Shown here in pieces: positions 4,108 to 53,084 of a DNA stretch of 64,000 nt. Numbering within the stretch: position 1 is the stretch's first letter; every line of letters starts with the position of its first letter. Origin of the DNA: Selenomonadaceae bacterium (lineage in GTDB: Bacteria > Bacillota > Negativicutes > Selenomonadales > Selenomonadaceae); assembly GCA_017484005.1 (NCBI GenBank), contig JAFUTY010000051.1, positions 1-64,000 of the forward strand. The letters run 5' to 3'. The translations under genes and the position numbers were made by a program. A model generated the notes under the pieces. That model ran no database searches, was not told where the DNA came from, and was given only the letters and a program-made list of their open reading frames with translations.

Positions 4108-4764
4108 TTATTTTCCGTCGTTGAGAAAAAGTTTTCGACTAGCTGGTGCGATATACTGATTTGAATTTTCGATCGAATTCCTCGTGATTTGATCTACATT
4201 CGCTAGAAGATTTTTGAAATCCTCGTCGATTGTCTGCATAAAATGCGTCGCTGTATCGATTATATTACCGAGCTGCTTGCCAACTGCATCTTCCATAATT
4301 TCTCGAGCCTTGCTGCCTTCTGGAAATTTTTGAGAAATCGTTTCGAGTTGAGACATTGCCCGCTCCGATGCTCGATTTTGAGTCTCCTCATAATCGCGAC
4401 GCCGCTCCTCGACCAATTTCATCGCGCGATCTCTAAGTTCAATGCTCATAATTCCAAGACTCTCGCCGATTGAAATTGAACAATCTGCCATCGATTTTTG
4501 ATACGCCTCAATCGCATCCATAATTTTTTTCTGACGATCTAATTCCCGCGCCGCAATTTGATCATCGATTTCCGCGTTGAGCCGCCGATTTTCCAGCGCG
4601 AGATCCTGCATGAATTTTTCATCTTCATGACGCAGTTTTTGCTCAAGTTCCTTAGATTTTCTTTCATTACTCGCCGCGAGCTGTCGATCAATGATACTCA
4701 GCGGGCGCTCGATAATTGTCGCGCCAGCCCCCTGCAAAATTTTTATCAATAACGGATTAGCCAT
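4108..4764 (-). CDS. coiled-coil protein of unknown function, fifth gene of the GTPase cassette
   Basis: This 218-residue protein is largely helical. Residues about 30-90 and 100-150 are strongly charged heptad-like segments (for example KELEQKLRHEDEKF). A short hydrophobic N-terminus (NPLLIKILQGAGATI) might insert peripherally into a membrane. I recognise no family. The start ATG 4764 has GAGGAG upstream and overlaps the preceding gene by 8 bases, indicating translational coupling. As the distal gene of the cassette it could be a structural partner or effector, but that is only inference. Confidence 0.7.
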   Translation of the reverse strand: MANPLLIKILQGAGATIIERPLSIIDRQLAASNERKSKELEQKLRHEDEKFMQDLALENRRLNAEIDDQIAARELDRQKKIMDAIEAYQKSMADCSISIGESLGIMSIELRDRAMKLVEERRRDYEETQNRASERAMSQLETISQKFPEGSKAREIMEDAVGKQLGNIIDTATHFMQTIDEDFKNLLANVDQITRNSIENSNQYIAPASRKLFLNDGK

Positions 4765-5215
4765 TCAATACTGCCTCCTCGATTTTTTGATTCAAAATTT
4801 TCTCCTCTCGCAAAATCGAAATCTGAAATCGATCGAGAGTTTCCTTTAAATTCCGATTTGTCTCGAGCATTTTTTCGAGCGATTCAATTTTGGGATCGAA
4901 GAAAAATGCATCGCTAGATGAATATCCCCATGCCTTGACGAATTGCTGATACCACTGCAAAAATATTTTCAGCAGTTCAACTTTTGCCGCCCGAGAAAAT
5001 CGAGAATCATCGAGCGCGATTTGGCATTCTTCCCAATGAATTTTGAGCCAGCGCAATTCATATTTCTCTCGATAAAGCTGTCCGACGATCGAATTTTTCG
5101 GTGCATATAAAAATTGATAGAGCTCTGGATTTCCATTCAAAACATCGTCAATCAATCTCGCGCGGCAGTTTTTCATGATTTCGATAAAAGTTTCGAGCGA
5201 AAAATTTTCTGTCAT
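4757..5215 (-). CDS. helical protein of unknown function, fourth gene of the GTPase cassette
   Basis: This 152-residue protein is rich in Trp, Tyr, Leu and charged residues and looks entirely helical. A probable coiled coil covers the last 50 residues. It has no signal peptide or membrane span and no recognisable catalytic motif. The ATG at 5215 overlaps the previous stop by 4 bases (ATGA type) and the stop overlaps the next gene by 8, so it is embedded in a translationally coupled run. Function unknown; co-conservation with the GTPase would be the most telling test. Confidence 0.7.
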   Translation of the reverse strand: MTENFSLETFIEIMKNCRARLIDDVLNGNPELYQFLYAPKNSIVGQLYREKYELRWLKIHWEECQIALDDSRFSRAAKVELLKIFLQWYQQFVKAWGYSSSDAFFFDPKIESLEKMLETNRNLKETLDRFQISILREEKILNQKIEEAVLNG

Positions 5216-5538
5216 TGCGACATCCTCTTTCGAAATTCTGAAACGATTTCTTCGAGATTTTTGATTGTCAAAACGCCGAGAAAATGTTGACTCATCTCAA
5301 AACTATGACTCATGTGCTGCTCAAGATGTTTTATCCATAAATGTCGAATTTCGTCGTCGATTGGTTCAGATTCGAGCCGCTTTCGGATTTTTGGCAGCTC
5401 GTCTTGATAGAATCGCTCGATTTCCCCACGAAGATCCCGCTGAATTTGTTCAATGGATTCCAATTCTTGATCGAGGAGAAATTCATGCCGCGATCGTTTT
5501 TGGATTTTTGTTCGGAATGCATCGAAGGCTGTTTCCAT
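5212..5538 (-). CDS. small helical protein of unknown function, third gene of the GTPase cassette
   Basis: This 108-residue protein is highly charged and predicted helical, with heptad-like patterns from about residue 20 to 60 (EQIQRDLRGEIERFYQDEL). An AGAGGTG ribosome binding site lies close before ATG 5538. The end overlaps the next start by 4 bases. It has no membrane segment and no known domain that I recognise. Its size and composition suit an adaptor between the GTPase, the membrane-anchored protein and the distal coiled-coil proteins; that is inference from position only. Confidence 0.68.
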   Translation of the reverse strand: METAFDAFRTKIQKRSRHEFLLDQELESIEQIQRDLRGEIERFYQDELPKIRKRLESEPIDDEIRHLWIKHLEQHMSHSFEMSQHFLGVLTIKNLEEIVSEFRKRMSQ

Positions 5539-5542
5539 GAAT

Positions 5543-6160
5543 TCACCTCTTCGTTAGAATTAGAATGAATATCGCTAGGATTATCGCTCCGGCGATCGCG
5601 ATAATCGGAACGATCGATTTGTTTTGATCTTTCTCGATTCTCTGCGGAACATCCGGAGTTTTTTTTTGAATTGAATTGTTTGCATAATCTCGAAGTTTTG
5701 ATCTGAAATCTGAATCTCCAAAATTGATCTCGCTGGTAATTTCGAAATCTGAATCACTCGCTGATTTTGCATCGAAGAAACTTTTTCGATCCCAAACATC
5801 ATTGAGATATTTTGTGAATAGATCTGCACATCGATTCAAATTGAGATCTGGAATTTGTTTCGATCCTCGTTTGAAAATGCAGCCGATAAAAACTCGAATC
5901 GATCTTCCTTTATCGTCATGGAAAAATTTTTCATCGATCGATAGAGAACTTGTCAGACAAATCACTCCAGCCAAAACATCCTCGCCTTGAGTTTCGACGA
6001 TGTATCGAGGCGCGGAATTTTTATCGAATGACTCGACTGCCGATTGAATGATACTTCGAGCCCAGCGTTTTTGATCTGCCGTCAAAGTCGAATCGCAAAC
6101 TGCAAATTCTGGATTATAGTCGGCGACAAAATTTCGAGTGTGAATCAACGCTTTAATCAA
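5543..6160 (-). CDS. C-terminally membrane-anchored protein of unknown function, second gene of the GTPase cassette
   Basis: This protein of about 205 residues has a soluble N-terminal part of roughly 150 residues, a polar Lys/Asp-rich linker and one C-terminal hydrophobic helix of about 22 residues ending in TKR. It would be tail-anchored with the bulk in the cytoplasm. The start is best placed at TTG 6160: GGGAGG lies 5 bases upstream and the TTG overlaps the GTPase stop as TTGA, so translation is coupled. The reading frame is open to a TTG at 6178, but that start lies before the ribosome binding site. I recognise no domain. It may recruit the GTPase to the membrane (inference). Confidence 0.7.
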   Translation of the reverse strand: MIKALIHTRNFVADYNPEFAVCDSTLTADQKRWARSIIQSAVESFDKNSAPRYIVETQGEDVLAGVICLTSSLSIDEKFFHDDKGRSIRVFIGCIFKRGSKQIPDLNLNRCADLFTKYLNDVWDRKSFFDAKSASDSDFEITSEINFGDSDFRSKLRDYANNSIQKKTPDVPQRIEKDQNKSIVPIIAIAGAIILAIFILILTKR

Positions 6161-7155
6161 TGCCACCTCCCATCCCAAAATTGCAGATTGATTTTATCGG
6201 TGTGCGATTCAATCTCCGGCAAATATTGATTCATCGTTTTGATAAATTGCTCACGCTGATCAATTTCACTTTGATAATTCGAAATGTTTTGATCGAGTAA
6301 ATTAATCATCGCATCGCTGCGCCATAAAAAGAATCGATCTTTCTCAAAATCACGCATAAATCTATTGTTATCAATTTCTATTTTCAAATTTCGATTCATA
6401 TTTTCAAATTCATGCTGCTTATAATAAATCGCAATTTGAATTCCGTAAAAAATCGGGAGCTCAATATTGATTGGATCGAGTTCGCCGCGATTATCATCGA
6501 ATTCAATTTCTAAACCAATCGAAACCGGAATTATCGCGATAAATGTATCATCACGCGAAAAAATCGATTGAAATGATTCCTCGAAAATTTTTCGAAGTTC
6601 AGATTCATTCGTCTCTTGAGCATAGAGATCGTATTTTGTTACAATGATTGCAATCGGCGGAATATATTTTTTCTCTTCACGATATTCACTCAAAAACTGA
6701 TTCACATATCGACTGATCTTTTTGACTTTGCGAATTTTTTGATCGACAGATCCTCCCGCAAGTTTAGCTCCATCGATGCAGATGAATAAGACGCTCGAAT
6801 CGAACAAATTTTTCTTGAGATTCTCGCGCATCGCTGGATCGGCTTGACTTGGTTTCAATACAGAGCCTGGATAATCATACCAATCGAATTGCAAGACATC
6901 CTCATGCGCAATTTTCAAATTGAACGTGTATTTCTGAGTTGAATTTGTTCCTTCCGGAAATCGATCTACGCCGAGATCTTCTTCATCGAGCATTTCCGCA
7001 CGTCTCGCGAGCTGCTGTTCCTTTTGAAAATCTCCTTTCGGAATTGCGATTGTGAATTTGCCAACTCCTTCGAGCATTTTGAGATACATCGCGAGGAGAT
7101 AACATGTTTTTCCAGATCCAGTATCTCCCAGCATCGTGAATTGAGTTCTTTCCAT
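6157..7155 (-). CDS. P-loop GTPase, first gene of an uncharacterised five-gene cassette
   Basis: This 332-residue protein has the full GTPase signature set. The P-loop is GDTGSGKT at 10-17, a likely switch I threonine is in FPEGTNST around 67-74, the G3 Asp and Gly are in DWYDYPG at 91-97, and the G4 motif TKYD is at 173-176. The TKYD form indicates guanine specificity within the TRAFAC class. The last 80 residues are helical. It recalls the GTPases placed by Aravind and colleagues in predicted prokaryotic conflict systems, but I cannot confirm family membership. AGGAGGG precedes ATG 7155. The promoter upstream carries a 12-base C tract in its spacer. Confidence 0.85.
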   Translation of the reverse strand: MERTQFTMLGDTGSGKTCYLLAMYLKMLEGVGKFTIAIPKGDFQKEQQLARRAEMLDEEDLGVDRFPEGTNSTQKYTFNLKIAHEDVLQFDWYDYPGSVLKPSQADPAMRENLKKNLFDSSVLFICIDGAKLAGGSVDQKIRKVKKISRYVNQFLSEYREEKKYIPPIAIIVTKYDLYAQETNESELRKIFEESFQSIFSRDDTFIAIIPVSIGLEIEFDDNRGELDPINIELPIFYGIQIAIYYKQHEFENMNRNLKIEIDNNRFMRDFEKDRFFLWRSDAMINLLDQNISNYQSEIDQREQFIKTMNQYLPEIESHTDKINLQFWDGRWH

Positions 7156-7185
7156 GAAATCCCTCCTCTGAAAAAATTTGCATGT

Positions 7186-7216
7186 AGTATAAATTCTCGG
7201 GGGGGGGGGGCGTCAA
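7186..7216 (-). promoter_or_regulatory. probable phase-variable promoter of the GTPase cassette
   Basis: On the minus strand a -35 box TTGACG (7211-7216) and a -10 box TATACT (7186-7191) are separated by 19 bases, of which 12 are a pure C tract (7199-7210). Spacers near 17 bases are optimal for housekeeping sigma factors, so gain or loss of C by slippage should change promoter strength. Poly-C promoter spacers of this design control phase-variable genes such as opc in Neisseria. The start codon is about 30 bases downstream. Confidence 0.7.
7199..7210. repeat. 12-base G/C homopolymer tract
   Basis: Twelve consecutive G on the plus strand occur in an AT-rich intergenic region. It is by far the longest G or C run I see in the window; the next is a run of six in the thioesterase ribosome binding site. 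Confidence 0.95.
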
Positions 7217-7240: not shown

Positions 7241-7280
7241 AAAAAAGATCCACCGATCAATTTAGATCGATGGATCTTTT
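7241..7280 (-). terminator. intrinsic terminator after the toxin-antitoxin-like pair
   Basis: A long stem (7243-7258 with 7265-7280, one mismatch) has T-rich ends on both strands. It separates the pair upstream from the GTPase promoter, supporting independent transcription of the cassette. Confidence 0.8.
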
Positions 7281-7285
7281 ATCGT

Positions 7286-7501
7286 TCAGTGGAAATATTC
7301 GTGGAAATGTTTTTTGACAACAGCTTCATTCTTGCGTTTGTAATCGAGAACGATGAATCCAACGATTTTGCCGGTATCATCGTTGCGAGTCACATAAACG
7401 CCGGGAAAATCCTCGTCATCAAATGCATTGATATCCGAATCGATGAAAACATGCATCACATCGTGCATATCATCATATTTGAAATATGGATCAGTCTTCA
7501 T
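7286..7501 (-). CDS. DUF2283-like small protein, possible antitoxin
   Basis: This 71-residue protein matches the general pattern of DUF2283: a YD...DVMHVFI strand at the N-terminus, then a turn and a D-x-x-GKIVGFIVLDYKRK strand near the C-terminus. DUF2283 genes are often found next to small RelE- or DUF4258-like toxins. Here the gene overlaps the end of the upstream gene by 11 bases and has GAGGAGG before ATG 7501. Antitoxin function is inferred from this pairing, not shown. Confidence 0.6.
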   Translation of the reverse strand: MKTDPYFKYDDMHDVMHVFIDSDINAFDDEDFPGVYVTRNDDTGKIVGFIVLDYKRKNEAVVKKHFHEYFH

Positions 7502-7865
7502 AAATTATATCCTCCTCATAAAATTCGCCTTGCAATCGATTCTGCGCCCCCCAAGTGACAACATCGAATTTCCCATCGTTGTCCTCAACTACAACTTTGA
7601 CGGTTTTCACTTTTTTTGGAAAATTTCCCAATCCAACGAGATCCGCTCGATAATAATGGGATCGATTTTTGAAATCCGGATCTTTCAAAATCAATGTTGG
7701 ATGTTGAAGAGTCTTTTTTACACTCGGCTCGATAGCACCACGAAACCTGGCATCTTTCGAATTGTGCTCTCCAATCAAATGAACATTAAAAATTTCATCG
7801 TACATAACGATTTCAATTCCGCGCGGATCAACAACTTTCCAGCGAACAATTTTTTCTTCCGCCAT
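7491..7865 (-). CDS. small basic protein, possible RNase-like toxin partner
   Basis: This 124-residue protein has an arrangement seen in small RelE/EndoU-like nuclease domains of the phage-barnase type. There is an N-terminal strand, a conserved His in NVHLIGEH, a helical stretch ending LQHPTLILKDPDF, and a Tyr/Arg-rich strand SHYYRADLVG. The match is by pattern only. The start is taken at ATG 7865 because GAGGTG lies 6 bases upstream, while the GTG and ATG further up overlap that site. The overlap with the DUF2283-like gene suggests a toxin-antitoxin pair; the order is toxin first. Confidence 0.55.
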   Translation of the reverse strand: MAEEKIVRWKVVDPRGIEIVMYDEIFNVHLIGEHNSKDARFRGAIEPSVKKTLQHPTLILKDPDFKNRSHYYRADLVGLGNFPKKVKTVKVVVEDNDGKFDVVTWGAQNRLQGEFYEEDIIYED

Positions 7866-7930
7866 CAGCATCACCTCAATTCGAATTTTATATCAAAACT
7901 TTTCCATATTCAATTTATATTTTCACAAAC

Positions 7931-46636: not shown

Positions 46637-46672
46637 AAAAGAGCTCGAGCGATTGTGTCTCGGGCTTTTTTT
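46637..46672 (+). terminator. intrinsic terminator or attenuator before the receptor array
   Basis: An 8-bp stem with one G-T pair (46642-46649 with 46659-46666), with A residues before and T residues after, ends only 6 bases before the AAGGAGG of the first receptor gene. No promoter is visible between it and that gene. An upstream hairpin (about 46588-46620) could compete with it, so it may attenuate receptor transcription. Confidence 0.7.
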
Positions 46673-46691
46673 ATTTCAAGGAGGAATTTTT

Positions 46692-47504
46692 GTGAAACTC
46701 AACAAAATTTTCGGTGCTCTTTCAATTTTTACAATTGCAGCGATTGGACTCACTGGCTGCGGCGAAGATCCTCAAGCAAATTCAAACACGCTGAAAGTCG
46801 GCTCGACAATCGATTTTGCACCGTTCGAATTCCAAGACGAAAAGCAGACTGATTATCAAGGATTCGACATGGATTTGATTCGCGCGATTGGCAAAGAGAT
46901 GGGCAAGGAAGTTCAAATCAGCAATATCGGTTTCGATGGATTGATTCCTGCTCTGCAAGCGAAAAATATCGACGTCGTTATCTCTGGAATGACAATCACT
47001 GACGAGCGCAAAGAGAATGTCTTGTTCTCTGATCCATATTATCAATCAGGACTTCAAATCGTCGTGAGATCCGATGAAACTTCAATCAATTCGTTCGAGG
47101 ATCTCAAAGGCAAAAGTTTAGCAGTTCAAATTGGAACGAGCTCTTCTAATGAAGCTAAAAAAATCGAAAATGCAACAGTCAAAGAGCTCAATACTCCGGC
47201 TGACTGCTTCATCGAATTGCAAAATAAAGGCGCGGATGCAGTTATCAACGATCGCCCTGTCAATGACTATGCAATCAAAGAGGGCGGAATCACTGGATTG
47301 AAAGCACTGCCTGAACGTTTGACTGCGGAAGATTATGGAATTGCAATGGCTAAAGACAATGTCGAGCTCCAAAAACAAGTCAACGATGCATTGAAAAAGA
47401 TCCGTGACAATGGTGAGTATGACAAGATTTTCGAAAAATGGTTCGGTGGACAAGTTCCTCAAGCTCAACCAGAATCTCAACCGGAATCCCAGGCTCAACA
47501 ATAA
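46692..47504 (+). CDS. amino-acid ABC transporter substrate-binding lipoprotein, copy 1 of 8
   Basis: This 270-residue type 3 solute-binding protein has a lipoprotein signal with lipobox LTGC. The ligand pocket motifs are present: DFAPFEF, the carboxylate-binding Arg in ITDERK and the amino-binding Asp in DAVINDRPV. It should capture a polar amino acid at the outer face of the inner membrane for the permease at 53148 and ATPase at 53850. It starts at GTG 46692 behind AAGGAGG. The C-terminus is a Pro/Gln-rich tail. It is closest in sequence to copy 2. Confidence 0.93.
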   Translation: MKLNKIFGALSIFTIAAIGLTGCGEDPQANSNTLKVGSTIDFAPFEFQDEKQTDYQGFDMDLIRAIGKEMGKEVQISNIGFDGLIPALQAKNIDVVISGMTITDERKENVLFSDPYYQSGLQIVVRSDETSINSFEDLKGKSLAVQIGTSSSNEAKKIENATVKELNTPADCFIELQNKGADAVINDRPVNDYAIKEGGITGLKALPERLTAEDYGIAMAKDNVELQKQVNDALKKIRDNGEYDKIFEKWFGGQVPQAQPESQPESQAQQ

Positions 47505-47524
47505 TTTTTAAAGGAGTGTAGGTC

Positions 47525-48328
47525 ATGAAAATTTCCAAATTGATCGCGATTTCCGCACTCACCACTTTCGGAATCGCTGGACTCACTGGCTGCGGTGAAG
47601 ATCCTCAAGCGACTTCAAACTCGTTGAAAGTCGGAATGACTGCTGACTTTGCGCCATTCGAATTCCACAGCGACAATCAAAAAGATTATAAAGGATTCGA
47701 CGTCGATTTGATCAATGCTGTCGCTAAAGAGATGGGCAAGACTGTTGAAATCCAGGATCTCGCTTTCGATGGATTGATTCCTGCAATTCAGTCCAAAAAT
47801 ATTGATGTCGCGATTTCCGCAATGACAATCACTGAGGAACGTCAAAAACATATTGGATTCTCAGATCCATATTACAAATCGGGACTTGCGATTCTTGTCC
47901 GCGCAGATGATACGACAATCAACACGCTCGACGATCTCAAAGGCAAAACTATCGCGGCTCGAGTCGATACAACTGGATTAGATGAAGCTAAGACGGTCGA
48001 AAATGCAACAGTCAAACCATTCAAAACTCCGCAGGACTGCTTCAAAGAATTGCAGGCTGGAAACGTCGATGCAGTTATCAACGATCGCCCAGTCAATGAC
48101 TATGCAATCAAAGAGGGCGGAATCACTGGATTAAAAGATCTTCCTCAAATGTTGACTGAAGAAGAATATGGAATCGCGATGGCTAAAGACAATTCCGATC
48201 TGAAAAAACAAGTCAATGACGCGCTGAAAAAACTCCATGAAAATGGTGAGTATGACAAGATTTTCGCAAAATGGTTCGGTGATAAAGCTCCTCAGCCTGA
48301 AAATCAATCCGAACCAGCTCAACAATAA
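47525..48328 (+). CDS. amino-acid ABC transporter substrate-binding lipoprotein, copy 2 of 8
   Basis: This 267-residue lipoprotein (lipobox LTGC) is clearly paralogous to copy 1: identical ITxER and DAVINDRPVNDYAIKEGG segments and the same Pro/Gln tail. The pocket region reads DFAPFEF and differs mostly in the second lobe (RVDTTGLDEAK). AAAGGAGTG precedes the ATG. Conservation with copy 1 is the highest in the array, suggesting a late duplication. Confidence 0.93.
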   Translation: MKISKLIAISALTTFGIAGLTGCGEDPQATSNSLKVGMTADFAPFEFHSDNQKDYKGFDVDLINAVAKEMGKTVEIQDLAFDGLIPAIQSKNIDVAISAMTITEERQKHIGFSDPYYKSGLAILVRADDTTINTLDDLKGKTIAARVDTTGLDEAKTVENATVKPFKTPQDCFKELQAGNVDAVINDRPVNDYAIKEGGITGLKDLPQMLTEEEYGIAMAKDNSDLKKQVNDALKKLHENGEYDKIFAKWFGDKAPQPENQSEPAQQ

Positions 48329-48362
48329 TTTCCATTTCTGATTTTCCAAAGGAGTGTCATTA

Positions 48363-49163
48363 ATGAAACTTTCAAAAAAACTCTCGGCAATGCTCGCAAT
48401 TTTCGCAGTTTCAACATTCGCACTCACTGGCTGCGGCGAAAATCCAGATCAAAACCAAAACTCGGCAAATCCTCCAGCAAATTCCACCGCTCTCAAAGTC
48501 GGAACTGCTGCCGATTATGCTCCATTCGCTTTCCAAAATGAAAATCAAGTTCAAGGATTCGATATCGATCTTATCAATGCTATCGGAAAAGAGATCGGCA
48601 AAAATGTTCAAATCGAGGATGTTAAATTCCAAGAATTGATTTCATCTGTCGAATCCAAAAAAATCGATGTTGCAATTAATGGTATAACTATCAATGGTGA
48701 ACGCAAAGCATTGGTTGCATTTTCAGATCCATATTTCAAATCGGGACTTCAAATTCTCGTGAAAGAGGATAACACTGACATCAATTCGCAGGCAGATCTC
48801 AGCGGCAAAAGAATCGCGGTTCAAGAAGGAACAACTTCCGAGACTTTGGCAAATGGAATCGAAAATGCTGCGGTTACAAAATTCGCAACACCGGATGAAG
48901 CTTATAAAGCTCTTCAAGATGGACAAGCAGATGCAGTTATCAACGATCGTCCTGTCAACGAATATTTGATCAAAGAGAATAAACTCGCTGGAGTCAAAGC
49001 TCTTCCGGAATCTTTGAATGAAGAAGAATATGGAATCGCAATCGCTAAAGATAACGCGGATCTTCAAAAACAGATCAATGACGCTCTCAAAAAACTTCAA
49101 GACAATGGTGAGTTTGGTAAGATTACCGAAAAATGGTTCGGATCTCAACAAACGCAGCAGTGA
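48363..49163 (+). CDS. amino-acid ABC transporter substrate-binding lipoprotein, copy 3 of 8
   Basis: This 266-residue lipoprotein (lipobox LTGC) has an Asn/Pro-rich linker (NQNSANPPANS) after the Cys. The pocket reads DYAPFAF and the hinge motif INGERK replaces ITDER, keeping the Arg. DAVINDRPV is retained. The start is ATG 48363 with AAAGGAGTG upstream; a GTG three codons earlier overlaps that site. It is the most divergent of the first three copies. Confidence 0.92.
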   Translation: MKLSKKLSAMLAIFAVSTFALTGCGENPDQNQNSANPPANSTALKVGTAADYAPFAFQNENQVQGFDIDLINAIGKEIGKNVQIEDVKFQELISSVESKKIDVAINGITINGERKALVAFSDPYFKSGLQILVKEDNTDINSQADLSGKRIAVQEGTTSETLANGIENAAVTKFATPDEAYKALQDGQADAVINDRPVNEYLIKENKLAGVKALPESLNEEEYGIAIAKDNADLQKQINDALKKLQDNGEFGKITEKWFGSQQTQQ

Positions 49164-49172
49164 TTTTGAATC

Positions 49173-49931
49173 ATGAAGTTCGCTAAATTATTAGCAATTT
49201 TCTCGATCTTCGTTTTATTAACTGGCTGCGGCGATGAATCAGCATCTGAATCGGAAGCCGAACCGATTAGAGTTGGCATTTCGAGCGTATTTCCACCTTT
49301 CGATTTTGTAGATGAAGCAAATCAAGATTATCAGGGATTTGATATCGATTTAATTCGCGCGGTTGGCAGAGAAATCAATCGTCCAATTCAATTTACTTCA
49401 GTCGATTTCGATTCAATTATTCCTATGATTCAATCAAACGATATCGATATCTCAATCTCAGCTATCACAATCAATGACGAGCGAAAAAAATCTGTGCTAT
49501 TTTCAGATCCATATTTCGAAACGGGCTTACAAATCGTCGTGAAAGATGACAACACTTCGATAAATTCGCTTGCGGATCTCAAGAATAGGCGAGTTGCAGT
49601 TTATATCGGGACGACTGCAGATGCTAAAGCTCATCAAGTCGAAAGTGCAGCTATCACGCGGTTAAATGATCCCGCAAAATGTTATGACGAGCTGGAAGAT
49701 GGAAATGTTGACGCGGTTATCAATGACAGTCCATATAGCGCATATCTGCTCGCGCAAGGACAAATCGCAAATGTAAAAATTCTTCCGGAACTTTTGACTT
49801 ATGAAGAATATGGAATCGCGATTCAAAAAGATAATGTTGAATTGCAAAAACAGATCAATGACGCGCTGAAAAGAGTTCATGAAAGCGGCGAATATGATCA
49901 AATTTACTCAAAATGGTTCGGAGAAAAATGA
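49173..49931 (+). CDS. amino-acid ABC transporter substrate-binding lipoprotein, copy 4 of 8
   Basis: This 252-residue lipoprotein (lipobox LTGC) has pocket motif SVFPPFDF, ITINDERK, and DAVINDSPYSAY with Ser replacing Arg after the Asp. It shares with copy 7 the segments LxxGQIANV, ELLTYEEYGIA and GTTxDAxAxQ, so these two are sister copies. There is no clear AGGAG before the ATG, only 9 bases after the previous stop; translation is probably coupled to copy 3. Confidence 0.9.
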   Translation: MKFAKLLAIFSIFVLLTGCGDESASESEAEPIRVGISSVFPPFDFVDEANQDYQGFDIDLIRAVGREINRPIQFTSVDFDSIIPMIQSNDIDISISAITINDERKKSVLFSDPYFETGLQIVVKDDNTSINSLADLKNRRVAVYIGTTADAKAHQVESAAITRLNDPAKCYDELEDGNVDAVINDSPYSAYLLAQGQIANVKILPELLTYEEYGIAIQKDNVELQKQINDALKRVHESGEYDQIYSKWFGEK

Positions 49932-49947
49932 TTCGGAGAGTTGAGTC

Positions 49948-50721
49948 ATGAAAGATTTTGCTAAAAAATTGCTGGCGATATTCTCGATTTTTTCACTGAC
50001 TATCTTTTCATCCGGATGTCTTGGCGATGATGAAGTTGAAAATCCCAAAATGTCACTTCGAGTTGGAACGAGACTTGATAGTCCTCCATTGGAATTTTAT
50101 GCTGAAAATGGAAAAGATTATCTGGGATTCGAGATTGATTTGATTCGCGCAATCGCTAAAAAGATGAATGCTCGTGTTGAAATCGAGGATATAAATTTCG
50201 ATGCACTAATTCCTGCACTTCAATCAAATATGATCGACTTAGCAATTTCTGGAATGACAATCACTGACGAACGAAGTCAGATTGTCGTATTTTCAGATCC
50301 ATATTATGAATCGGGATTGACTGTTCTTGTGAAAGCGAATGATGGCTCAATCAATTCGTTCAATGATCTAAGAGGCAAACGAATCGCGACGAGATTTGGA
50401 TCAACTGGTTATGCAGCGGCAAGACAAATCGCAGGTGTAGATATCATAGAGTTCGGCGAAGCAAATGAAGCTGTCGAAGAACTTCAAAATGGTGAAGCGG
50501 ATGCAGTTATTGGCGACCGTCCAGTCAATGATTATTTGGTAAAAAACAATGCAGATCTTGGACTCAGATCGCTCCCAGGAACTTTATCAGCGGAATATTA
50601 TGGAATTGCAGTTGCAAAGGATAACGAAGAACTTCTGCAGAAAATCAATGAGAGTTTACAGTATATTCGCGACAGCGGTGAGTATGACAAGATCTATTTG
50701 AAATGGTTCGGGGAAAATTGA
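49948..50721 (+). CDS. amino-acid ABC transporter substrate-binding lipoprotein, copy 5 of 8
   Basis: This 257-residue lipoprotein (lipobox SSGC) has the most altered pocket, RLDSPPLEF, where most copies have EFAPFDF-like residues. ITDERS and DAVIGDRPVNDY are kept. It may have a changed ligand preference. The upstream gap contains CGGAGAGTTGAGTC, which is repeated before copies 6 and 7. Confidence 0.9.
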   Translation: MKDFAKKLLAIFSIFSLTIFSSGCLGDDEVENPKMSLRVGTRLDSPPLEFYAENGKDYLGFEIDLIRAIAKKMNARVEIEDINFDALIPALQSNMIDLAISGMTITDERSQIVVFSDPYYESGLTVLVKANDGSINSFNDLRGKRIATRFGSTGYAAARQIAGVDIIEFGEANEAVEELQNGEADAVIGDRPVNDYLVKNNADLGLRSLPGTLSAEYYGIAVAKDNEELLQKINESLQYIRDSGEYDKIYLKWFGEN

Positions 50722-50751
50722 TTCGGAGAAAGTGATTTGTAGAGTTGAGTC

Positions 50752-51531
50752 ATGAAAAATTTTGCTAAATTGCTCGTGATTTTCTCGATTTTCATCCTCT
50801 TCATCGGCTGCAAAGATGAGCCTGAAACTAAAGTCGAGCCGCTCAGAGTTGGCTCAGCTCTTGAATTTGCTCCATTCGATTTTCAAACGCCGGACGACAG
50901 AAATTATCAAGGATTCGATATCGATTTGATTCGCGCGATTGGTAAAAAGATGGGGCGAGAAGTCAAAATCAGTAATCTCGGCTTTGAATCGGGATTCGAT
51001 GGATTGATTGCCGTGCTGCAGACTAAAAACATCGATCTTTTCATCGCGGGAATGACAATCACTGATGAACGCCGTCAAAAAGTTCTATTTTCAGATCCAT
51101 ATTTCAAATCGGGACTTGCAATTGCGATTCGAGCAAATGATTCAACCGTCAATTCATTTCAAGATTTAGCGGGAAAAAGAATCGCCGTTTTGATTGATAC
51201 AACTGGAAATCTCGAGGCTCAAAAAATTCCGAACGTCACGATTAAAGAATTTGGAACGCCGACGGAATGTTTCGAGGAGCTTGCAAAAAATCAAGTCGAT
51301 GCAGTTATCAATGATCGTCCAGTCACCGATTACATGATTCATCGCGGCGAAATTTCGAATGTGAAAGTTCTGCCGGAATTGTTGACTGAAGAAGAATATG
51401 GAATCGCGATTGAAAAGGATAGTGTCGAATTGATGCTGCAAGTCAATCTCGCACTGCAGCAGATTCGTGACAGCGGCGAATATGATCGAATTTATGAAAA
51501 ATGGTTCGGAGCAAAACATTCGGAGAGTTGA
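50752..51531 (+). CDS. amino-acid ABC transporter substrate-binding lipoprotein, copy 6 of 8
   Basis: This 259-residue lipoprotein (lipobox FIGC) has pocket motif EFAPFDF and a four-residue insertion giving LGFESGFDGLI, shared only with copy 8. DAVINDRPVTDYM and RGEISNVKVLPELLT also match copy 8, so these are sisters. A 57-base stretch (51264-51320) is identical to copy 7, although copy 7 belongs to a different sub-lineage. The ribosome binding site is weak (TAGAGTTGAG). Confidence 0.9.
   Translation: MKNFAKLLVIFSIFILFIGCKDEPETKVEPLRVGSALEFAPFDFQTPDDRNYQGFDIDLIRAIGKKMGREVKISNLGFESGFDGLIAVLQTKNIDLFIAGMTITDERRQKVLFSDPYFKSGLAIAIRANDSTVNSFQDLAGKRIAVLIDTTGNLEAQKIPNVTIKEFGTPTECFEELAKNQVDAVINDRPVTDYMIHRGEISNVKVLPELLTEEEYGIAIEKDSVELMLQVNLALQQIRDSGEYDRIYEKWFGAKHSES
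51264..51320. repeat. 57-base segment identical to 52047-52103
   Basis: The same 57 bases occur in copies 6 and 7 and encode part of the second lobe including CFEELAKNQVDAVINDRP. Flanking sequence diverges at once, which fits gene conversion. Confidence 0.9.
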
Positions 51532-51534
51532 ATC

Positions 51535-52308
51535 ATGAAAATTTTTACTAAATTACTCGCAATTCTCTCGATCTGTATATTTTTCACTGGCTGCGGCGAT
51601 GAATCGAAATCTGAATCGGAAGTCAAAGTCGAACCGCTCAAAGTTGGCGCATCGATAGCATTTCCGCCGTTTGGATTCAAAGATGATTCGAGCCGCGATT
51701 ATCAAGGATTCGATATCGATTTGATTCGCGCAATTGGTCGAGAGCTCGGTCGTCCAGTTCAATTGAGCAGTATCAGTTTCGACGGATTAGTTCCGACAAT
51801 TCAATCTAAAAACATCGATCTTGCGATTTCTGGAATTACAATCACTGACGAACGGAAGAAATCGCTGTTGTTTTCAGATCCATATTTTGAATCGGGACTT
51901 CAAATCGTCGTGAGAGATGACAACACTTCGATAAATTCGCTCGAGGATCTCAAAGGCAAACGAATCGCAGTTCAAATCGGGACAACTTCAGACGCTCAAG
52001 CCCAGCAGATCGAAGATGCAATTCTCACGAAGCTTGATACTCCCGTGGAATGTTTCGAGGAGCTTGCAAAAAATCAAGTCGATGCAGTTATCAATGATCG
52101 TCCGTCAAATGCATTCATGCTCGCTCGAGGACAAATCGCAAATGTTCGAATGATTCAAGAGCTTTTGACTTATGAGGAATATGGAATCGCGGCGATGCCA
52201 GATCGGGCGGAATTGATTCAGCAGATCAATGACGCGCTGAAAAAAGTTCGTGACAGTGGAGAATATTATCGGATTTATGCAAAATGGTTCGGTGAGCAGA
52301 AGGATTAA
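51535..52308 (+). CDS. amino-acid ABC transporter substrate-binding lipoprotein, copy 7 of 8
   Basis: This 257-residue lipoprotein (lipobox FTGC) has pocket motif SIAFPPFGF like copy 4 and ITDERK. It shares DxLxxxxNSLEDLKGKRIAVQ with several copies. The Asp motif DAVINDRPSNAF combines the copy 6-like block with a copy 4-like continuation. It starts three bases after copy 6 stops, behind CGGAGAG. Confidence 0.9.
   Translation: MKIFTKLLAILSICIFFTGCGDESKSESEVKVEPLKVGASIAFPPFGFKDDSSRDYQGFDIDLIRAIGRELGRPVQLSSISFDGLVPTIQSKNIDLAISGITITDERKKSLLFSDPYFESGLQIVVRDDNTSINSLEDLKGKRIAVQIGTTSDAQAQQIEDAILTKLDTPVECFEELAKNQVDAVINDRPSNAFMLARGQIANVRMIQELLTYEEYGIAAMPDRAELIQQINDALKKVRDSGEYYRIYAKWFGEQKD
52047..52103. 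repeat. 57-base segment identical to 51264-51320
   Basis: Second copy of the identical block, located in receptor copy 7. Confidence 0.9.
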
Positions 52309-52313
52309 TAAAG

Positions 52314-53084
52314 ATGAAATTCATAAAATTACTCGCAATGCTTTCGATCTTCCTAATTTTCACCGGATGCAGTTCTGAAGAAAAATCTTCCCAGCCGCCT
52401 TTGAGAATCGGTTCAGCCATGGAATTTGCGCCGTTTGATTTTCAAGAGGAGGGCAGCAATCAATATCAAGGATTCGATATCGATTTGATTCGCGCGGTCG
52501 GTCGAGAGCTCAATCGCGAAGTTCAAATCAGCGATATTGGATTTGAATCTGGCTTTGATAAACTGATTCTCACGCTTGATTCGAATAACATCGATGCTAT
52601 CATTGCAGGAATGACAATCACGGAGGAGCGGAAGGATAAAGTTCTATTTTCAGATCCATACTATCGCTCGGGATTGACAATTGCAGTTCGCGAGGATGAA
52701 ACAGGAATCAATAAATTCGCGGATCTCGCTGGGAAAAGAGTCGCAGTGTTGATTGAAACAACTGGCGGAGCTGAAGTTCAAAGACTTCCAAACGTCACGA
52801 TTCAAGAATTCGAATATTCGCCTGGATGTTTCGAGGCACTGGCAAATGGTGAAGTCGATGCAGTTGTTCAAGATCGTCCAGTCACCGATTATATGATTGC
52901 CCGCGGCGAGATTTCGAATGTGAAAGTTCTCCCAGAACTTTTGACTCAGGAAGATTATGGAATTGCAGTCAGAAAAGATGACGTCGAACTGCAGCAGCAG
53001 ATTAATGACGCGCTGAAAAAAATTCGCGAGAGCGGGGAATACGATCGCATCTTTGACAGGTGGTTCAGAAAACCCAAGCAATAA
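52314..53084 (+). CDS. amino-acid ABC transporter substrate-binding lipoprotein, copy 8 of 8
   Basis: This 256-residue lipoprotein (lipobox FTGC) has pocket motif EFAPFDF, the ESGF insertion shared with copy 6, ITEERK and DAVVQDRPVTDY with Gln before the Asp. Its C-terminus ends RKPKQ, unlike the KWFG ending of the others. It starts five bases after copy 7 and is followed by an intrinsic terminator that separates the receptor array from the permease gene. Confidence 0.92.
   Translation: MKFIKLLAMLSIFLIFTGCSSEEKSSQPPLRIGSAMEFAPFDFQEEGSNQYQGFDIDLIRAVGRELNREVQISDIGFESGFDKLILTLDSNNIDAIIAGMTITEERKDKVLFSDPYYRSGLTIAVREDETGINKFADLAGKRVAVLIETTGGAEVQRLPNVTIQEFEYSPGCFEALANGEVDAVVQDRPVTDYMIARGEISNVKVLPELLTQEDYGIAVRKDDVELQQQINDALKKIRESGEYDRIFDRWFRKPKQ

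Follow-up and report, generated by a model that had tools for sequence, protein, structure and literature searches.

Most known cases of phase variation driven by slippage come from pathogens adapted to a host. In the Neisseria meningitidis porA promoter the tract lies between the -10 and -35 boxes, whereas the poly-C tract of opc encompasses the -35 box; for the porA promoter and for that of tp0126 in Treponema pallidum, the spacing optimum is 17 (PMC7864442). The opc gene is low at C11 and high at C12, and the study of it observed no variation in 89 parental colonies and variation in a mutS mutant (PMC3447861). In Campylobacter and Helicobacter a single genome carries many G/C tracts, both within genes and in the spaces separating them (PMC8355987, PMC2823697). 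Text searches of the literature turned up no account of phase variation by poly-G in Negativicutes.

We found that a C12 homopolymer in the 64,000-nt stretch of Selenomonadaceae DNA analysed here (the window) is probably a slipped-strand-mispairing phase switch in the predicted sigma-A promoter of a putative five-gene GTPase operon. The features of this putative promoter (window positions 7186-7216) and of the cassette behind it are listed in minus-strand order.

7243 to 7280, minus strand: intrinsic terminator behind the two genes upstream, isolating the tract promoter
7211 to 7216, minus strand: -35 box TTGACG, matching TTGACA at 5/6 positions
7199 to 7210, minus strand: C12 homopolymer (G12 on the plus strand), the proposed variable element
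7192 to 7198, minus strand: GAGAATT, the fixed portion of the spacer
7186 to 7191, minus strand: -10 box TATACT, matching TATAAT at 5/6 positions
7161 to 7168, minus strand: Shine-Dalgarno sequence GAGGAGGG of the GTPase gene
6157 to 7155, minus strand: GTPase of 332 aa, DO-GTPase2 (PF19993), 34.4 bits against a cut-off of 27
5543 to 6178, minus strand: protein of 211 aa with a C-terminal transmembrane helix, overlapping the GTPase stop; syntenic homologue in genome G031
5212 to 5538, minus strand: protein of 108 aa; an 82-aa alignment with the third cassette gene of G031 shows 50% identity
4757 to 5215, minus strand: protein of 152 aa, no recognised Pfam family, overlapping its neighbours
4108 to 4764, minus strand: coiled-coil-like protein of 218 aa, final gene of the putative operon

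Read on the minus strand, the order is 5'-CAACTTGACG-C12-GAGAATT-TATACT-ACATGCAAATTTTTTCAGAGGAGGGATTTCATG, with a spacer of 19 nt (7210-7192) that opens with the 12 C residues. A sequence-only reading had reported TTGACG and TATACT 19 bases apart with 12 C between them, and exactly these coordinates were recovered on the minus strand; its arithmetic, 19 now and 17 once two C are lost, is also right. The homopolymer between the two boxes is longer than the minimum of 8 nt that we used to define such tracts. Behind these good boxes the Shine-Dalgarno sequence and the GTPase ATG, at 7155, come at a normal distance. The C12 tract is the only G/C run longer than 6 in the 64-kb window, and Markov models predict 3e-6 to 2e-5 G/C 12-mers, about 1e-5 per 64 kb. 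When flanks were shuffled and both strands searched, a box pair with at most 2 mismatches arose around a single tract in about 2% of cases; the boxes by themselves are therefore moderately significant, and their assignment is strengthened by the Shine-Dalgarno sequence and ATG downstream and by the terminator just upstream. This level of chance, together with a promoter predicted from sequence, leaves some room for coincidental boxes and a tract that acts by regulator binding, by DNA structure or at another start of transcription. We consider such a role improbable, because the leader, Shine-Dalgarno sequence and ATG fit TATACT and a scan found no alternative -35 box 16-18 nt from it or near the tract. 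A frame-shift switch within the GTPase was rejected, as the tract lies upstream of both the Shine-Dalgarno sequence and the ATG. Further upstream, a gene at 7491-7874 gave a weak match, below cut-off, to PBECR2 (a phage-type nuclease) and stands beside a DUF2283-like small gene.

Under the spacing model, a C gained or lost at C12 during replication would shift the distance between -35 and -10. A spacing of about 17 (C10) is predicted to be strong, and the present 19 (C12) to be weak or off. Since gain or loss of C would alter promoter spacing, the population would be a mixture in which some cells have the GTPase system and others lack it. Given its position in a promoter spacer and its membership of a set of at least 86 tracts, C12 very probably works as a random on/off switch, one member of what would be a genome-wide contingency set, some of whose tracts fall in promoters and many within coding regions. 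Our claim for the GTPase locus rests on this anatomy and on the behaviour of its tract class; from these we infer switching at 7199-7210, its direction and any benefit.

The five cassette reading frames overlap or are closely spaced. The GTPase belongs to the DO-GTPase family, scoring above the PF19993 cut-off, and its sequence contains a P-loop (GDTGSGKT), DYPG (DxxG) and TKYD (TKxD). Searches of the cassette proteins with PADLOC gave weak matches and no credible defence match; the best, to ZorA at 19.8 bits, probably reflects a coiled coil, and NCBIfam and PADLOC together supplied no usable name. A search of the genome contigs with the GTPase as query returned no match. The role of this DO-GTPase2-type GTPase is putative. 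DO-GTPase systems have been put forward as conflict systems in which GAP1 is the partner (Kaur et al. 2020, PMC7159879), and the cassette resembles them in its fit to the DO-GTPase2 profile and in its transmembrane partner; it differs in that Pfam detected a GAP1 domain in none of the four proteins encoded downstream, which have no recognised family. The suggestion of a surface or defence function is only half right for the cassette: the family has been proposed for conflict systems, but GAP1, their defining partner, did not turn up here. Elsewhere in the window (46653-53084), about eight paralogous solute-binding lipoproteins of amino-acid type stand in tandem ahead of a single permease gene and a single ATPase gene.

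The source genome (2.44 Mb in 72 contigs) has a PNPase closest to those of uncultured Selenomonadales/Veillonellaceae metagenome-assembled genomes, several from rumen, with a best identity of 73%. It carries at least 86 G/C tracts of 10 or more (mode 12), the most among 253 sampled genomes of the class. Tracts of at least 11 number 82 in this genome, compared with 37 in the runner-up among the remaining 252 and 0-2 in most; in the same sample, genomes of this genus were generally richer in tracts than other genera. In another genus of the family, fifteen G11+ tracts lie within 1.1 kb, all on one strand (G185:C9:3589-4676). MutS and MutL are both encoded in the source genome, so loss of mismatch repair was rejected as the source of its tract richness, and their presence would restrain slippage, so that the switching rate could be modest.

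We examined all 86 tracts in stretches of 2-13 kb and read their flanks. Tract placement was taken from a heuristic dicodon caller, a 150-nt codon-usage test being too weak to classify tracts; by this caller, about half of the tracts lie inside or at the edge of one called reading frame and the others between same-strand frames. Many tracts are found in or at glycosyltransferase, TonB receptor or methyltransferase genes. Representative tract-bearing genes of typical phase-variable kinds encode GT2, GT8, GT61, DUF4422, FkbM methyltransferase, TonB receptors and RTX-repeat proteins; others encode radical SAM/SPASM and an AAA ATPase. Tract genes are strongly biased to surface-modifying functions. 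In four GT2 genes the start codon is closely followed by the tract; read from sequence, one is in frame (L031, C12) and three are out (L030; C11, C12 and C12), the kind of mixture expected of on/off alleles. In G orientation (L009-L074, all 86 tracts), C directly precedes 67/86 tracts and follows 69/82, mostly as CTC-Gn-CA. This flank is alike in genes and promoters; neither promoter nor frame explains it.

Poly-G reads could also produce such tracts as sequencing or assembly artefacts, and five of the 86 lie less than 100 bp from a contig end (C8, C36, C42, C45 and C55 of G000), where 0.5 would be expected; because length mixtures would cause breaks, assembly may itself break at tracts. We nevertheless regard an artefact as very improbable and rejected it for the 7199-7210 tract, which is internal, 7.2 kb inside its contig, and has meaningful sequence to its left and right. 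The frame and promoter context of other tracts is likewise coherent, and the same architecture occurs in assemblies of other species.

Within the source genome, 8 of the 86 tracts lie between -35 and -10 boxes at no more than 1 mismatch, compared with 0.13 in shuffled flanks, and 11 do so at no more than 2 mismatches, compared with 1.5; the 7199-7210 tract is in the latter set, and in the strict set it is the only case in its genome with C on the coding strand. The 11 spacers measure 16, 17, 19, 20, 21, 21, 21, 22, 22, 22 and 22, and a promoter with a 14-bp tract-containing spacer also occurs. From what is generally known of sigma-A promoters, most of these would be weak as assembled, and those at 16-17 would be strong.

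To place these promoters in the genus, we searched its 66 genomes for TTGAC..G8+..TATAAT, which occurred in 13/66, and for the poly-C version, which occurred in 8/66; a reversed control pattern had 0 matches in all 66. Most of the promoters found are followed by a Shine-Dalgarno-like sequence and then a long reading frame, often of an RTX-repeat protein. At one locus, G002 and G010 are 97% identical over 1.68 kb and their promoters differ by exactly one C, with C9 and a spacing of 20 in G002 and C8 and 19 in G010. AAA ATPase orthologues (76% identity) have G15 and a spacer of 22 in the source genome, in two paralogues, and G8 and a spacer of 16 in G016. Radical-SAM orthologues (51% identity) have G13 and a spacer of 20 in the source genome, and C8 and a spacer of 14 in G100. 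Genes under tract-spaced promoters include AAA ATPases at L039 (1995-2937), L068 (2001-3025) and L160, and radical-SAM genes in three species at L058 (633-2005), L186 and L161. The repeated occurrence of homopolymer spacers at the same genes, with length or base changed, is the strongest argument for selection acting on the switch.

Cassettes in relatives lack the tract. The first three cassette genes are conserved in G031, and reading frames like those of the cassette follow the GTPase in G016; G032 has one that resembles the second gene. No poly-C tract was found upstream in G031 (1.5 kb), G016 (150 bp seen) or G032, a comparison that covers the full upstream region in G031, so the switch at this cassette appears to be limited to the source lineage. 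One possible explanation is that the promoter is real and weakly constitutive and the tract a passenger, in a genome that tolerates or generates G/C runs everywhere, with no selected switching. The relatives' cassettes agree with this, as does the CTC-Gn-CA flank shared by the 86 tracts whatever their context, which points to a general birth process. A passenger tract would not, however, account for the excess over shuffles of tracts lying exactly between boxes, for orthologous genes that keep tract-spaced promoters while length and even base differ, or for the strong bias of tract genes to surface-modifying functions, and we consider it unlikely. The phase switch proposed by the sequence-only reading is well supported by analogous tract promoters in genome and genus and by the one-C difference between G002 and G010; against it count the relatives' cassettes, the presence of MutS and MutL, and the lack of a second coding-strand C case in the strict set of its genome.

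With its 86 tracts, this Selenomonas-like genome and the promoter tracts across its genus would extend slippage phase variation to outer-membrane-bearing Firmicutes, a major rumen group whose surface glycans are likely to be under pressure from phage and host. If the DO-GTPase-type cassette has a stochastic promoter, this would offer a handle on its role, as a costly or protective system held by only part of the population. More tentatively, and with considerable doubt, we suggest that this uncultured genus may run a poly-G/C contingency system that ranks with the largest known, epsilonproteobacteria and Neisseria aside. In it, spacer tracts of either base would appear time and again at the same genes, would control not just surface genes but also intracellular modules (GTPase, AAA ATPase, radical SAM), and would work with mismatch repair; the CTC-Gn-CA flank of the source species would then hint at a specific tract-creating process.

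Among known systems, the Neisseria parallel drawn by the earlier reading holds for porA, where the tract (poly-G) likewise lies wholly in the spacer and 17 bp is optimal (PMC7864442), but it is loose for opc. The GTPase promoter differs from porA in its coding-strand poly-C, its Firmicute host and its target, an intracellular GTPase cassette and not a porin, and its length effect is a predicted one. With opc it shares a poly-C of similar length (PMC3447861), whereas its tract leaves a good -35 box free. The tp0126 promoter of Treponema pallidum, with poly-G in the spacer, has the same geometry and a predicted optimum of 17 (PMC7864442), in a different phylum and with an outer-membrane target. 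The poly-G contingency loci of Campylobacter and Helicobacter are similar in their many G/C tracts in and between genes, and the source genome is unlike them in having MutS and MutL; it holds 86 tracts, compared with the 29 tract-associated coding regions given for Helicobacter canadensis (PMC8355987, PMC2823697).
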